Below are positions 22,701 to 56,000 of a stretch of DNA of 64,000 bases, one piece after another. The translations under genes were made by a program, and so were the position numbers. The notes beneath the pieces are model-generated. The model searched no databases. It saw nothing but the letters and a program-made list of their open reading frames with translations, and was not told where the DNA came from. Position 1 is the stretch's first letter. The number at the start of each line of letters is the position of its first letter. The stretch is taken from positions 16,944,001-17,008,000 of the forward strand of contig NC_089994.1 of the NCBI RefSeq assembly GCF_036417845.1, given 5' to 3'. Source of the stretch: Apteryx mantelli. Taxonomy: Eukaryota; Chordata; Aves; Apterygiformes; Apterygidae.

Positions 22701-25700
22701 TTTCTTTTCTTAACAACCATTATGAGTAATCCAGCCTTAAAGCCTTCAACACTAATATTGCAATAATACACATTTGCTAGGAGATGAGCCTAAGCACACT
22801 CCATTTGAGTTAAGGTACCACTACCTTGTCTTAAATGTGGCAGAAGTGAAGATGCAAAGAAAAAAAAAAAAATCAATACAACAATATGTCTTGAGAATCA
22901 CCATGTAGTCTGAAACCACAGATGTGTAATCTCTGTCTCTTCATGAATTATCAATATGATGTTTCCAAACAAACCCACAAACACGCCCCACAGCATTCTC
23001 CAGTTTGTCTAAGGTAACATTTGAGCATCGGTTTAGAGGTTAAGCCTCCTGTAAGACAGTTGGGTCTTCCACGTTCCTAGTGTTTTTAATGCCAGCCATA
23101 ATACTCTATGAATATGCATTCTGGAGTTTAATTTCTTAAAGCCTTCTCTCTCCATCCTCAGGGAATAACAAAGGGACAAGCAACTTTCAGTTAACAGGTA
23201 ACAACAGCAATAAAGAGAAATGGATCAGTATGCTAAAATTAACTTTTGGCCTCTTGCAGACGTAAGCAGCATCTAACTATTCTGCAGACCGAAAAAAGCA
23301 ATTCCTATTCAGGGAACTGTGGGCTCACACAGCAGAAATGCAGTTTAGGCTACCTTTGAGGACAGCAAAAGCCCCAGAACAGAGGTCTGGGGACAGCAGA
23401 GGATCTGCATTACATTTCTTAAGAGGAGATTTGACCAGCACCTACTCAGAACAGTTGAAGTGGAGCTGATGTCGTGCCAGGACAGGGGAACAGACTGGAG
23501 GGACTTCTGAGGACTATCTTTGTTTTCTCTGGCTGGGGGATTATTCCATGGCAGCAGCTCGAGCTGCCAATTGCAGCCCCACTGAACACAGACCATGTCT
23601 GCACCTGACGACAAGAATGCCCAAGGGATGCATGGTCAGATACAGGTCTCACCTCAAAGGCTGCTGAGATGATCTTGGCTTTCTTGCTCAGCACTGACCC
23701 CACAGCATTGAAGTTCTTGTCGCGGATTTCCGCATACAGCTCTTCAGCAGAATTCAGCTGGAGCTTCTTGGGTTCTGTGGGGAGATCTTTGCCACCCTCA
23801 CCCTGCTTCTTTGGGGCAAACTTCTCAGGAGGGAGTTTCACATAAGCTATCAAATGCAGAGAAATAACTTCCATAAGAACTGGAATTTCACCACAAGAAG
23901 TTAAGGAAAGCAGAGCATGAAACTTGTCCTCTGATCTGGAGACAGTTCTGAGCAGCAAAGCCAACATAAAAGCCTTAATAACAACTTGGTGTGTGGGAAT
24001 TAAGGACAGTCTCCTGTACTCACAGGGGAACCCACAGACCTACACACACAGGTATCAGAAATATGTACACAAGTATCAGAATCCAAGCACTCACTATCCT
24101 GCTTCCAAAGAGGTTCAGATGCAGCCTTCCAGCTAGTCATCAGTACAGCAGGGGGAATTAAAAGCTGTAAATGCCCCTTGGAGTTCTTTTCCTACTCTCC
24201 CAAAGAAAGGGGGAGAATCCTGAATGGCATTTCACAAACTCTTCCCTTTCCCTCAGTGTGGCACAACATGAACAATCCAGGCTGGAGGGTGAAGGCGTAC
24301 ACTAAAATTTCTACTCCCACACTGTGTGTTCTCTGTCACCATGTTTGCACCCAGCTGACATCCAAAATATTCACATTCAATAACATGCGCTGCACCCAAC
24401 TCCTCTTCCTACGTAAAAAGAGGAGCAAAGCTCATCTTGATGGACTCTAGCTTGGGATTGCTAAATCAAGTGTCTGACCCATCCCCCTACTAATTTCAAG
24501 TGAGCTATTCCAACATCACTGTCACATAGTGGAAGCAGAAATCCACTTGACACACTGCAGCCTGCTTCAGCACACCAGAGGCTTCTCCCCCTTGGATGTG
24601 CAGTACTCACTGTTCTGAATTCCATAGATTTCATCAATCAGCCCTTCATACGTCAGCTGCGTAGCTAAAGGTGTCAACAGATCAACGTTACGGTCCAGCA
24701 ACAAGAGGGTATCGAAGACAGGAAATATTGAGTTCTGGCTTCCAGGGAACTCACGCTTCATCCTGATCATCATATTAGCCACGTGCTGAAAATAAACCAC
24801 ATTGGTCTGGTTATGGTGCAGGCCCCAACAGAGATTTCTAGGCTCTACGAGCAGGTACTCATGCAAATATCTTGTTGTAAAGAGTCTTGTGTAAAGGAAG
24901 GGCAAGAGGTACAAACTGACTGACAGGAGGGGAGCAGGACAAGCAGACACAAACCAAGGCCTTCTCTACTAGCTTAGCACAACAGCGACAACTGTGGCTA
25001 AGGCACTGGTTTCCTCTCAAGCCACTCCCTAATTACAAAAGGTAGTAATTAAACTGTAGGTTGATCAGAGAGGAGAAAAAGAGGATGAGTGACTTATATG
25101 GAGAGATGAAAAAGATAAGGCATGAGCAGTAGGTTGCACATCTCCCTCTTTGTTCAGCCTTTCTGATGCAAACAGAGCAGCTAAGTGTTAAACTCCACAG
25201 AAAGACAAGTTGCTGAAAGCATAGTGGTATAACTAAGAGTAAGATATAGGAAATCGGATAAATCCTCCTGACAGCGAGGTTTATGGAACAGCAAAGATTG
25301 TTTTGGCCAGAGATGACAAAGACCTGCTGGACATGCTCCTGAAATTCCAGTATGACAAGAAGGGTCCATGGCTGGATTCAAAAAACCTCACAGATGTCAG
25401 TTAACCACACATGCCCCAAGCAGTTCCGAAGAACTAGATCAAGCAGCAGCATTTGCCTTACCCGGGCACACTCCCCCTTTCCAAAGATCTGAGGGATGGT
25501 TCCGTAGAGAGCCTGCAGTGTCATCAGCCCCTTCGCTGCATGGTACAGACTTGTCTGGTCACTCTCCAAGTAACATTCCTAAACAATGAGAAGGATTCCC
25601 AATGGAATCGATCTGACAGAGATGCTTTCACAGTCGAATGTGGTCCATGTGAATAGTTCAGAAGAGACATAGGCTAGGAGAAAAAAAACTATGGCCATTG

Positions 25701-50000: not shown

Positions 50001-53000
50001 GCTTATAAGGTAGGTAAAATTTATCATATAAAAGCATTTAAATGTGATTACTTCATTCTGCAGCTTCTCATTTGTCTGTCTAGAGTTCTCCAAAGAGGCC
50101 AAAGTTTCAATCTTTTCTTTGTGAAGGGCATCCTTCTCTTTGGTCACCTGCTCCACAATCTGAAAAGCATCTTCTGCCATTTTAGCAGCCTAAATATAAA
50201 GAAAAAAAGAAGTATTACCAACAGGTCCTCCAAAAGCAAAAGACTAATCACAATACTTTATGCAGAACTCCTTGTTTAAATGGAAAACAGATGGCAAACA
50301 GTGAACTTTATTTTCATAAAGGGAATTGAGAGTACTTGCATTCTGAAGCTGCATAAAGTATAAAATAAATGGACATGAGAAGGTCTAATTCCATGCAAAA
50401 ATCCAGTCATAACCCCATGCTCGTGTCACCACTGAGAAAGCCCACTTCCTTTTTAGTTTCTGGATTTCTAATTAGAACTGCTGTGATTACTCTTAGATTT
50501 CCAAACATTTTACAATAGTGGTAGTTCAACAGATATTCACTTCCAACAGACTGCTCTGTTTTTGCAGAAAATGTGGAATTATAAAAAGCTGTTAAAAATT
50601 ATTTGAAAATAAATTTAAGTAGGAGGTAAAGCCAAATATCACATTATTGCAGTGCTTTTCATTATGATTTACCCTCATGAAAGAAAATATTTTCTGTATA
50701 TTAAAATATCTGGGTAGGCATAACACATTTCTATATAGTATCTCAAATCCAATTTATATCGTAAGTGATTTCGTGAGTTTCAAGCTACACAAACCAAAAT
50801 TCAAAAATACTATTTCAGAATTTGTTGGTGGTGAATACAAAACACTTCTGTGAATAAAAAGAACACCAGAGATGCCATTGTCTTGAACAGTCTGAAAGTC
50901 TTATAAGTTTAAATGGTTCTCTTGCAACACTTTTTATCCAATTGCATTTACAGGAGCAATACATTGTCTCATATTTTTTGAGTAGCTCAAATTTAGCTCA
51001 GATTTATAGTGTTCATTCTTCCAATTTAACATAAAATTGCACAAAGATCTAATCTAAAACCATATCTATTCCTACACTAGCTATTAAGCCGCAAAGTACT
51101 TCAACAGAAGCTGCTGCTCAGTTTCTCCTATGAGAGTCAGGAAACTTCCTTTTATTCACAGTTTACTTTGTTTTCTTGCAACATTCAGCGACAACATAGG
51201 CTCATATATTTAGACACAATTTAAAAAAATATTATAGCTGTTAAAGGATCTTTCAGACTCTGTTACAATTTGAAATAAACAAGGTAATATACTGAGATGG
51301 AAGGTAATTGCAGCCTGTTCACCCTGAGATGAAGTGCTGATTGTGCAATGGAGTGCAGACAGGAAACCATTGAGTTAGTGCTCAGTGTTAGTACAACCAT
51401 ACTCGATTGTTTAACAACGTGTCTCAATACCTCAATTTTTTGTGTTACTGTTTGGGCCTGAAGAGTCTCAATTTCTTTTAGTTTCAAAGCCATATTGTTC
51501 ATCTCCTCCAGCAGCATCTGATTTTTGTCCTGAAAGACCAGTAGTTTGCCTGAGAGGTCACTATTAGTTTGTGCTAAAAGTGCTACTTCCTCATGCAGTT
51601 TATAATAGTCCTTGGAGAATTTCTCCTTCTCTTTTAGTATTTCTTCCTTAATGATGACCAGACACTTCTGTTCAGCAAGCAGGCTCTCATTTTCCTGGAG
51701 CAACTTTATCCTCTCCTTCTCTGTCACCTCGTGGCTTTCTCTAAGATCTTCTAGGATCTTGGAGAGACAGCTGTGCAAGTCCTGGAGCTCTGCTTTTGAT
51801 TTAGACAAAGAAGCAAAGTCACTCTTCAGCTGGTCAATATTGGAAGCAAGTTGCTCTGTCTCTGCACTGAGGATTTCCTTTTCTTTAATTATTTCCTCCA
51901 GTTTAGATTCGGATTTTTCTTTCTCCTGAACCAAAAGTTCTTTCTCAGTCAGCAATTCTTTATTTTTCTCTCTCAGCTCTTCTATTTCCTTCTCTAAGAA
52001 GCTGATGTTGTTTTGAAGTTCCATACGTTCCAACAAAAAGGATTCCTTGTCCAGCTTCCTAGCTTCCTTTTCAATGGCTAAGTTTTCTTTCATAATCTCA
52101 ACCTCTCCATTTAATTTCTGACACTTATCTTGCAGTTCAGTCCTCTCTCTAGTCAGCATTTCCCTATCAGAGGAACAGGTCTTGAATGAAGATGACAGGA
52201 CCTGCTTGGCATGTGATATGGCAGCCAGTTCATTTTCTAATGTTCTTTTGGCATCCTGAGTCTCTTTCAGGAGATCTGAAAGGTCACATTTACAGGCTAT
52301 TAGCTCTTGATTTTCTAGCGTCTTCTTGTCTAGTTCTTCCTTGAGGGCTTCAATGGAGTCTTGGAGTGTGGTATTCTCTTGGACCAGAACTCTCCTGGCT
52401 GAGACACCCAGCTCATGTTTTCTCTTCATATCAGAAATTGCATTTGCAGAAGACTCACTTTCATCAAGAAGTGCCAAGTATTTGCTCTCCAATTCATTCT
52501 TCTCTTGGAAAAGAGCTTCATTCTGTTTTTCAAACTGCAATGACTTACAAAAAACAGATTCCTTTTCTAAGCTCAGTTCATTGATTTTCTCGGTAAGGAT
52601 TCTCTCAGCAAGTTCAGCGTCTGCTGTGGCCTTAGCAAGTTTTTCAGTAATTGCCTTATTTTCATTTAAAAGTTCCTCCCTTTCGGCCAAAAGCCTTCGT
52701 TCTGATGAAGAAAGAGCCTCCTTGTCTTGAAGTAACTGAATACATTCAGAGTCAGATATCTCCCTTGAGGCCTTAATTTCCTCAAGAAGCTGAGAGAGGC
52801 TATCAAGGGAAGCCTTCAACTCCATATTGTCTTTTAGCACCTTTTTAAGTTCTTTATGTTCAGCCTCTAGTTCTGTTTGCAGCTCTTCTGTTCTCACATT
52901 TAAAGCCTGGTTTTCACTAACAGTAGTGGCTAAGCTCACCTGCAGCTCTTCTATGCCTTTAAGGAGCTCTTCCTTCTCAGACTGCAAACTCTGGCTTGTC

Positions 53001-56000
53001 TGCAACAGATGGTCTGTTTCATTTTTTAAGGCTATATGTGTACTTTCAAGATCCAAATATTTACCTAGGGCTGAATCTCTCTCTGTAGTCAGAACTGACA
53101 CTTCTTGCAGCAGCTCTCTTTGATCTCTGGCCAGGTCCTCACAAGAACTTTTCAGCTTCTGAATGACACTATCTTTGTCTTTAACAAGTGCATCGTTCTC
53201 TGCTAAAAGTTTCTTCTGATTATCCTCCAGTTCCTTCTGTTCCCTGATGTGCTTCTGACATGCCATATCTACGGCATCTTTGCTGGCCTGAAGTTCTTTC
53301 AACTGTTGGAGCAAGGTTGACTCTGCAGACCGGAGAGCATCATTTTCTCGAGTTATCTTTAGAAGATGTTTCTGTGCTACCTCTATTTCAGAGAGTAATT
53401 TGCCTTTCTCAGAAATTAGTGCCATCTTTTCCGTGCTTTTCTGCTGGCTTTTAGCCTCAGCTTCTTCCTTTTCCTTTAGGATTTTTTTATTTTCTGAATT
53501 AAGTTCATCATTTATTGTCCAAAGCTTTTCTTGGTCTTGTTGTAAAAACATAATCTTGGATTCCAACTCTAAAAGTTTTGATAACAATGAACCTTTCTCT
53601 ACTTTTAAAGTATTCCCCTCCTGTGCCAGAGTCTCTCTTTCTGATATCAAACCCCTCATCTTGTCTGACATTAGTTCAATCTCTTTTCTGGCTGTTGCTA
53701 ACACAGAGGTTAAGGACTAAAGAAAAAATTGGGGAGAAGGGAAAACAAAAATGAAGTCAAGCAGACAAATGAGAAATACAAATTAAGGGCAAACAGAGCT
53801 ATTAAATTTTAAGTTTTAAAAAAGCGTATATGCTGACACACAGTCCCTGTGCGATCTGACCTGCTGATTGCCAATGATATTTCATTGCAAAACACCAATC
53901 ATCCACAAGAAAACTCTTCAGAGTTTAAATGAAAAAAGATCACCCTTGAACGCTCCTCCATACAAGACTTCAACTTGTTTATAAAACTACCAATGAACAG
54001 CCACAAAATGATTTCATCAGAATCTAAGTGAATTAGTAGCAGGGAGTTAGTTAATAAGATACTGACTTCCAGTTCTCAGAGTCACCCTGTATAGCTAATT
54101 CTCCCCAAGAGTTTATCCAAGATACATTGTCATAAAATGTTCAATTCAAAATGCTGTATCAGAAATGTATTTAAAATTAACCTGTGTGTCAATTTATACA
54201 CTAAAGATTTTGCTAAAGCATAAAAAAATAAATTATAGCAAATGACTAATGAGGGATGAAAGCAAGAAGCAATGTCAAAGAAATGGGGAAAAAAATATTC
54301 AAGTCAAGCTACATATAAAATAGCTGCACATAACACGGGATCCTATTACAGAGCAAAATTTCAGGTGTGTAACACCTCTAAATGAAAATTTCATAACATA
54401 CTTTATTTATAATTCATGCATTTAAACACCGAGAATGAAATATAGCTCCAACTGATTGTGCTGAATCAGATATCTACGAACATAAAGTGTTAACTTCAAA
54501 GAACCATATTTCATGGATACTTTAGTGCCATATGGAGAAGACAGAGAACCAGTTAGTGGTGTATGTTTCACTTTCCCAACCACTGTTAATCTACCCTCGA
54601 AAAGTTCACAAAAGAAACACTGCAAAAAAACTTATAAAAGGATGAAGCCAGGCAAAAAGGAGCGATTCACTGAAACAGAAAGAATTAAACTTCAAATTAC
54701 TTGCAGAGTAACAAAGTATACATACTTTGGCCTGTTCTGCTTGTTTCTTCAGCTCCTCGGCCTGTGTTTCCAACTCATTGTTTTTCTTTTGTGCAATTTT
54801 CAGCGTCTCTTTTGCATCCAACAAGTTCTGTTCAAATCCTTTGATATCTGCCTCATGTTTAGATATCATCTCAGAAGTTTCTTTTTCATACTTTGCCTGA
54901 AGATCCTTATACTGATTTTGGCTAGTCTCGATTTGCTTTTTCTGACAGAACATAAAACAATTGGAATACAATTAGAGATGTGGTGTTACAATATTCTTCA
55001 TGTAGCTATTTTGAAGTTGTTCTTACCAGGTCTGTTAGCTGATCCTGCATTTTTTTCAGTTCTGCTTGATGAATCTTGAGAGTTTCTTGCTGACTCTGCT
55101 CAGCTCTCTGTGTTGTCTGCTCCACATTTTCCTGAAGCTCAACAGCCTTTTCATTTGCTTTTGTAAGCTCAAGTTGTATTTGTTCCAACTGCCTGAAAAG
55201 ACCAAGTAAAAGAACAACATTACTTTTTGCTGATAGCATGATGAATGCAGAGATGAAAGACTTTAAATTGTGCTAAAGTTCTATAATCTGTCAAAAGATT
55301 AAGAAAGAAGTTTAATTATTTAGCATACAGAGAATGTTCTGCTAAATTAAATATACACAAATGAGAGCAAGCATTTGCAGAGCAGCACTGCTGCCACAGT
55401 TACCTTGTCTCCACAGTCCAGGGTTTTGTAAAGCTAAAGAACAACTATTCTACAGATAGTTTTTGTTTGAAACAAAACACATTCTCATTGCAAGTCAAGG
55501 AAGAGAACCAAGACTTTTCCATATCCAAATTAAACCAGCTGAGCAGGTAATCAAATAATTAGGAAGCATAACCATGAAGCAGGCCAGGTTATTAAAATAT
55601 TAATTTACTCTGGACAGTAAAAAGTATGTGTTACATAAGAATTTTAGAATTCTAAAAGCGAGTCTCTCTTCACATCACTGAGGAGACTATTTTGATGAAC
55701 TTAGTTTGATAGAAGTTCCCTTGTCATATCAATGTGACATTCAGGAGCATCTTGTTCAGCTATTTACAAAAGGATAAAATGAGAAGAGGGGAGTATGGGA
55801 GTAAAGAATTAATGTGAAAGTGTTTTGACAATGGTGGGATACCTTTCTTTTAAGCGTAGCTCATCATTCATTTTTGTAAGCTGGGCAGAGCTGTCTCCTG
55901 AAGACTTCATGATCTCTGCAATATCATTTTCAAGTTTGACTTTAGCTTCAATCAGTTGCTGTTCTCTTTCTTCTCTCTCCTTCAATTTCTTCTCCATAAC

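Follow-up and report, generated by a model that had tools for sequence, protein, structure and literature searches.

Results

A giant exon in the CLIP1 gene of the kiwi

The window analysed here is a 64,000-nucleotide stretch of the genome of Apteryx mantelli (contig NC_089994.1, positions 16,944,001 to 17,008,000; positions below are counted from the first letter of the stretch). On its reverse strand lies CLIP1, the gene of the microtubule plus-end tracking protein CLIP-170, and within CLIP1 lies the giant cassette exon that is the subject of this report (51431–53716). All CLIP1 features given below are on the reverse strand. A first-pass annotation of the window had described a single exon of 2,286 nucleotides, in phase 0 on both sides and with a good acceptor and donor, containing 762 codons without proline and flanked by exons that join in frame in its absence. 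Each of these points was confirmed. The frame consists of 762 sense codons with no stop and no proline, whereas the two remaining sense frames of the interval carry 61 and 76 stops. In 100 first-order Markov simulations of 64 kb each, chance produced open runs of at most 206 codons. The exon has a content of 37.4% A and 60.5% purine. It is preceded by an acceptor with a pyrimidine tract (53717–53777), which reads ...CCCCAATTTTTTCTTTAG/TCC (a slash marks a splice junction), and is followed by the donor GAG/GTATTG. The CLIP1 exons on either side were located with a CLIP-170 sequence as the probe. The giant exon lies, in phase 0-0, between a coil exon ending in ...QAEQAK (54726–54941, with a full codon at its end) and one starting with AAKMAED (50052–50189). 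The skip junction 54726/50189 reads AEQAK/AAKMA, and the reading frame of the flanking exons is kept whether the block is included or skipped.

We also found a second in-phase donor, missing from the first-pass annotation, 18 nucleotides upstream of the other (ACA/GTAACA, exon end 51449). Joining at this site gives LQAQT/AAKMA, which is identical to the golden eagle model P0043. The upstream donor is used by P0043 and by the mammalian models with the full join, and the downstream donor is used by white-tailed eagle P0045, chicken, pheasant, house finch, and snake. Behind the downstream donor, at +39 and +52, lie two ACTAAC motifs that resemble QKI sites and are 13 nucleotides apart (51374–51392). 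The motif ACTAAY occurs 22 times in 31.9 kb of the locus, with two copies within 60 nucleotides in 0.41% of stretches, and no ACTAAC was found within 100 nucleotides of nine other CLIP1 exon ends examined, some of which are approximate. We treat the pair as a lead on a QKI site, not as a result.

The exon belongs to CLIP1 and is widespread among vertebrates

A search with the giant exon alone as the protein query yielded 41 matches. A longer CLIP1 query that included the exon yielded 275, of which the best 120 were listed. Among these best 120 matches, 73 span 62–100% of the query region and one spans 31%; the other 46 span 8%, that is, the flanks only, and are short forms of 1,221–1,456 residues. 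The giant models among the best 120 include those of Aquila, Haliaeetus, Gallus, Candoia (boa), Canis, Mus musculus, Oryctolagus, and Cavia, and come also from songbirds, carnivores, rodents, rabbits, bats, and two frog genera. Using a frog exon as the query, we obtained 12 matches, which added more frogs, Ambystoma (salamander), and two fishes, the bichir Polypterus and the opah Lampris, whose giant CLIP1 models have 2,370 and 2,229 residues, respectively. The identity to the window over the queried region is 83% for the eagles, 74–76% for chicken and pheasant, 49% for mouse, and 28–31% for the frogs.

The junctions were examined in an alignment of 32 proteins, 29 with exon sequence and three short forms. 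The exon start reads A[KR]/SL in 28 of the 29 exon-bearing rows; the exception, P0116, is a model of 1,042 residues that lacks this junction. For the golden eagle (Aquila) there are database models of both kinds, giant (P0043) and skipped (P0156). Among 10 proteins compared, the CLIP1 of the window is closest to those of ostrich and tinamou, at about 95% upstream and 97–98% downstream of the exon, which points to a palaeognath as the probable source. These sequence comparisons led us to conclude that the block is part of CLIP1 and orthologous to the annotated giant CLIP1 isoforms. The proposal of an alternatively spliced giant isoform is supported by these joins, by the two golden eagle models, and by the accessible part of a study of mammalian exons (PMC10901741). 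The accompanying statement that CLIP-170, at about 1,430 residues, continues over this junction without interruption holds for the short form and not for the giant one.

Gene entries that consist of the block alone do exist. They are quail P0002 ("uncharacterized protein"), Lonchura P0005 ("trichohyalin-like"), and Otolemur P0014 ("GRIP and coiled-coil domain-containing protein 2-like"). Given the exact junctions to CLIP1 in the giant models, we rejected a separate gene; the three names are likely to be misannotations.

Four repeats of 172 residues

The exon encodes a tandem repeat, not recorded in the first-pass annotation, of four gapless units of exactly 172 residues with short ends. A 28-residue N-terminal end outside the repeats (53633–53716) is followed by R1 (53117–53632), R2 (52601–53116), R3 (52085–52600), and R4 (51569–52084), and then by a 46-residue C-terminal end (51431–51568), also outside the repeats, which contains the alternative donor. 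R2, R3, and R4 are 29, 21, and 27% identical to R1, respectively, and an alignment of all four units needs no gap in its 172 columns. The autocorrelation of the exon is 0.775, 0.567, and 0.537 at lags of 172, 344, and 516, whereas 200 heptad-preserving shuffles reached no more than 0.155 over lags of 20–500. At lag 172, 23.6% of residues are identical, whereas neighbouring lags average 9.6% and reach at most 17.3%. The signal climbs from about exon residue 24–35 and runs to about 715, which corresponds to four copies. Models built from mammalian sequences, one per repeat, each picked their counterpart in the window as the best match. The lag is also present in boa, mouse, and two other mammalian proteins, and more faintly in frogs. 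Third codon positions match at 31% at lags 172 and 344 and at 29% at lag 516, compared with about 27% elsewhere; this near-background level indicates that the copies are old.

The giant exon had no match in Pfam at E 0.001 and none among solved structures at E 0.01. The repeat profile gave weak matches to solved structures, 38 at E ≤ 1, the best of which (0.0004) was a short coil of M protein. We also considered and rejected an origin of the repeat in other parts of the CLIP1 rod: a long lag of this kind is absent there (in three proteins the best values were −0.09 to −0.12), and the match of the repeat profile to these parts is marginal.

A profile built from nine amniotes detected four copies in the salamander, the last in two pieces, five copies in five frog proteins, and five, some of them partial, in bichir and opah. 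A tree was then built with 49 copies, drawn from 11 species, whose ends were set by hand from the profile matches. Fish copy 3 falls within the tetrapod R3 group (support 100/97) and fish copy 1 within the R1 group (92/90, flagged for a long branch). The grouping of fish copies 4 and 5 with R4 is weak (83/80), and R2 gave no clear grouping for the fish copies. Because fish copies 3 and 1 group with tetrapod R3 and R1, at least two copies were, judging from the tree, already separate before bony fishes and tetrapods split; for all four copies this is likely but not proven. A fifth, fast-changing repeat follows R1 in frogs P0112, P0115, P0163, P0165, and P0166, and the frog lineage appears to have acquired an extra copy near R2.

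Coiled-coil character, length, and conservation

Heptad core periodicity and the absence of proline, both expected of a coiled coil, are found in the exon; the hydrophobic 3.5-residue periodicity stands 15.9 standard deviations over 300 shuffles. Since 172 equals 24 × 7 + 4, every copy must shift its heptads once. A register search placed shifts near exon residues 185, 377, and 547–566, and one in the averaged repeat, that is, about one heptad stutter per repeat. An unbroken coil along the exon would add 762 × 0.1485 = 113 nm, or about 25.5 nm per repeat, in good agreement with the gain of roughly 110 nm estimated in the first-pass annotation. The ordinary CLIP-170 molecule is about 135 nm long.

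The exons of white-tailed eagle and mouse align without a gap at 45% identity. Between dog and mouse the exon is 77% identical, and the neighbouring coil B 78%. In six amniotes, conservation by heptad position was 0.84 at d, 0.76 at g, 0.75 at a, 0.69 at e, and 0.64 at b, c, and f, with the register fitted on those same six sequences; core positions are better kept than the surface. The exon has 756 residues in mouse, dog, and guinea pig, and its length is constant in many amniotes, though not in all.

Other open frames of the window

Near CLIP1, a 383-residue open frame on the forward strand (1731–2882) contains a galactosyltransferase domain (Pfam PF01762, E 1.1e-43); we take it to be, probably, a B3GNT-type gene. 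Downstream of CLIP1, 23446–24039 on the reverse strand gave a weak Sec1-family match (E 0.0012, under the Pfam cut-off) and may be VPS33A. In the frog models P0163, P0165, and P0166, CLIP1 is fused to a Sec1 domain, and the fusion resembles read-through between adjacent genes. Two long open frames overlap on opposite strands (276–1819, reverse; 395–1474, forward), with no Pfam match for either.

Discussion

A giant coding cassette exon of human and mouse CLIP1/Clip1 has been described in PMC10901741 (Nature 2024), the accessible part of which names the Clip1 exon as spermatid-specific in mouse and reports its suppression by SAFB proteins in human and mouse cells. The available portion of another paper again localises CLIP-170 to the perinuclear ring of the manchette (PMC13373224). 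The bird exon is the ortholog of that in PMC10901741 by sequence and by its Mus musculus junction, and is likewise giant, coding, cassette, purine-rich, and above 33% A. In contrast, the part of that paper available to us treats SAFB suppression and spermatids and contains nothing on 172-residue repeats, birds, fishes, or tandem donors. Thus, the existence of the exon and its cassette nature were already published for mammals. In the open-licence literature we did not find the 172-residue repeat of CLIP1, its age, or the paired donors, nor any paper under the phrase "CLIP-170 isoforms". Splice forms of chicken CLIP-170 have been the subject of work in subscription journals.

We consider it likely that the block is a giant CLIP1 cassette exon, orthologous to the mammalian one, which acts as a splice-in coiled-coil spacer. 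Skipping of the exon would give the ordinary CLIP-170 of about 1,430 residues. Its inclusion, which we infer also for this bird, would insert 756 or 762 residues, depending on the donor, into the middle of the rod as four gapless 172-residue coiled-coil repeats. The head with its two CAP-Gly domains and the zinc-knuckle tail would be unaltered, and the molecule would gain at most about 113 nm in length. A long spacer of this kind is in keeping with the coiled coil, with conservation biased to the core, and with a length that is nearly constant, and would most likely let head and tail work further apart in the cells that include the exon. By extension from mouse, these cells may be spermatids, in which CLIP-170 is found at the perinuclear ring of the manchette. 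A more specific version is possible, and we put it forward tentatively: CLIP-170 may have had a splice-in ruler since before the split of ray-finned and lobe-finned fishes, in which repeat length, stutter, and copy number are kept as distance units of about 25.5 nm that set the gap between the plus end and the tail cargo, in spermatids and perhaps in other cells.

Several observations weigh against the spacer reading. The giant CLIP1 models are database predictions, and no giant form from ostrich or tinamou was present among the best 120 of the 275 matches. AlphaFold2, run on a single chain with 27 aligned sequences, predicted helices at residues 5–205, 281–472, and 486–751, broken by low-confidence stretches at 206–280 and 473–485 (mean predicted local distance difference test score 73.8, predicted template modelling score 0.31). 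Between eagle and mouse, the 45% identity of the exon compares with 62–95% in the four remaining parts of the protein (62% in coil B). The length deviates by 2–20 residues in chicken, pheasant, house finch, rabbit, pika, the leaf-nosed bat Sturnira, and the shrew Suncus, and the frog exon is about 150 residues longer, which also speaks against a strict ruler. The lag-172 signal is lost in quail P0002 and the Lonchura finch P0005, both with insertions or deletions; the profile still detects four copies in chicken and house finch. The exon has the composition of SAFB-suppressed giant exons (>33% A and purine-rich), but this is a weak test, because A-richness is shared by the other CLIP1 exons of the window (40.3% A) and is not special to the giant one. 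Finally, fishes, to our knowledge, have no manchette; if so, the original role of the exon must have been a different one. That fishes have the exon points to an additional, older role.

An alternative account of the repeats is a docking array, in which a partner binds each 172-residue unit, so that inclusion would add three or four sites spaced at about 25.5 nm, with length as a side effect. Such an array would have homologous units in register, as the four repeats are, the numbers of units in frogs (five) and fishes (about five) agree with it, and in the six amniotes some highly conserved islands, for example at exon residues 30–48, 179–193, 338–353, and 599–625, include surface positions. 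However, the best-conserved islands fall at differing phases of the repeat, the b, c, and f surface is the least conserved (0.64), and we know of no binding partner of the CLIP1 repeat. We therefore regard the array as rather unlikely. An exon kept by chance, included at a low level and without function, is improbable. It would account for the faster evolution relative to the neighbours of the exon, the insertions and deletions in passerines and quail, and the birds that lack a giant form among the best 120 of the 275 matches; against it stand about 750 codons that have stayed open at 45–50% identity between birds and mammals, the near-equal conservation of exon and coil B between dog and mouse, the core-biased conservation, and the regulation reported in the accessible part of PMC10901741.

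Most improbable of all is that the block is a gene of its own, or a retrogene, lying within an intron of CLIP1. The block is modelled alone in P0002, P0005, and P0014, and a single large exon among short ones would suit an old retrocopy. Nevertheless, the in-frame joins to CLIP1 are exact in all but one of the 29 exon-bearing rows, the acceptor, donor, and phase are those of a CLIP1 exon, and the models of a lone open frame begin at an internal methionine and read through the donor. An ancient retrocopy as the origin of the exon itself is conceivable.

For the spacer, several known systems offer comparison. The myosin tail is a long-period coiled-coil rod with a 28-residue repeat and skip residues. 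Like the CLIP1 exon, it combines a repeat above the heptad with a regular break of register, whereas the CLIP1 unit has 172 residues and occurs in four copies within one optional exon. The nearest analogue is exon 18 of ninein (2,121 nucleotides; PMC6429586, PMC11422218). According to the available portions of these papers, it is a very large in-frame cassette exon of a microtubule protein, switched by cell type, with a downstream Qki5 site ACUAAC (PMC6429586), as found behind the CLIP1 exon; compared by description, it differs in encoding a centrosomal binding region used in neural progenitors. The tables of PMC6429586 list Clip1 among Qki-dependent splicing genes, the exon being unnamed in the portion examined. 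The long exon of giant ankyrin (PMC5135030) and exon 4a of Big tau (PMC9755724) are likewise old, giant, and coding, and each makes a cytoskeletal protein larger in selected cells, but the accessible parts of these papers describe no tandem coiled-coil repeats, and exon 4a retains its size and little of its sequence.

CLIP-170 is a textbook plus-end tracking protein, and has nearly always been studied as the form of about 1,430 residues. If an ancient repeated spacer can be spliced into its rod, studies of the reach of CLIP-170, its autoinhibition, and its part in sperm shaping may have been done with the wrong isoform. The repeat units offer a handle on this question, since proteins with zero, two, or four repeats could tell whether length itself matters.

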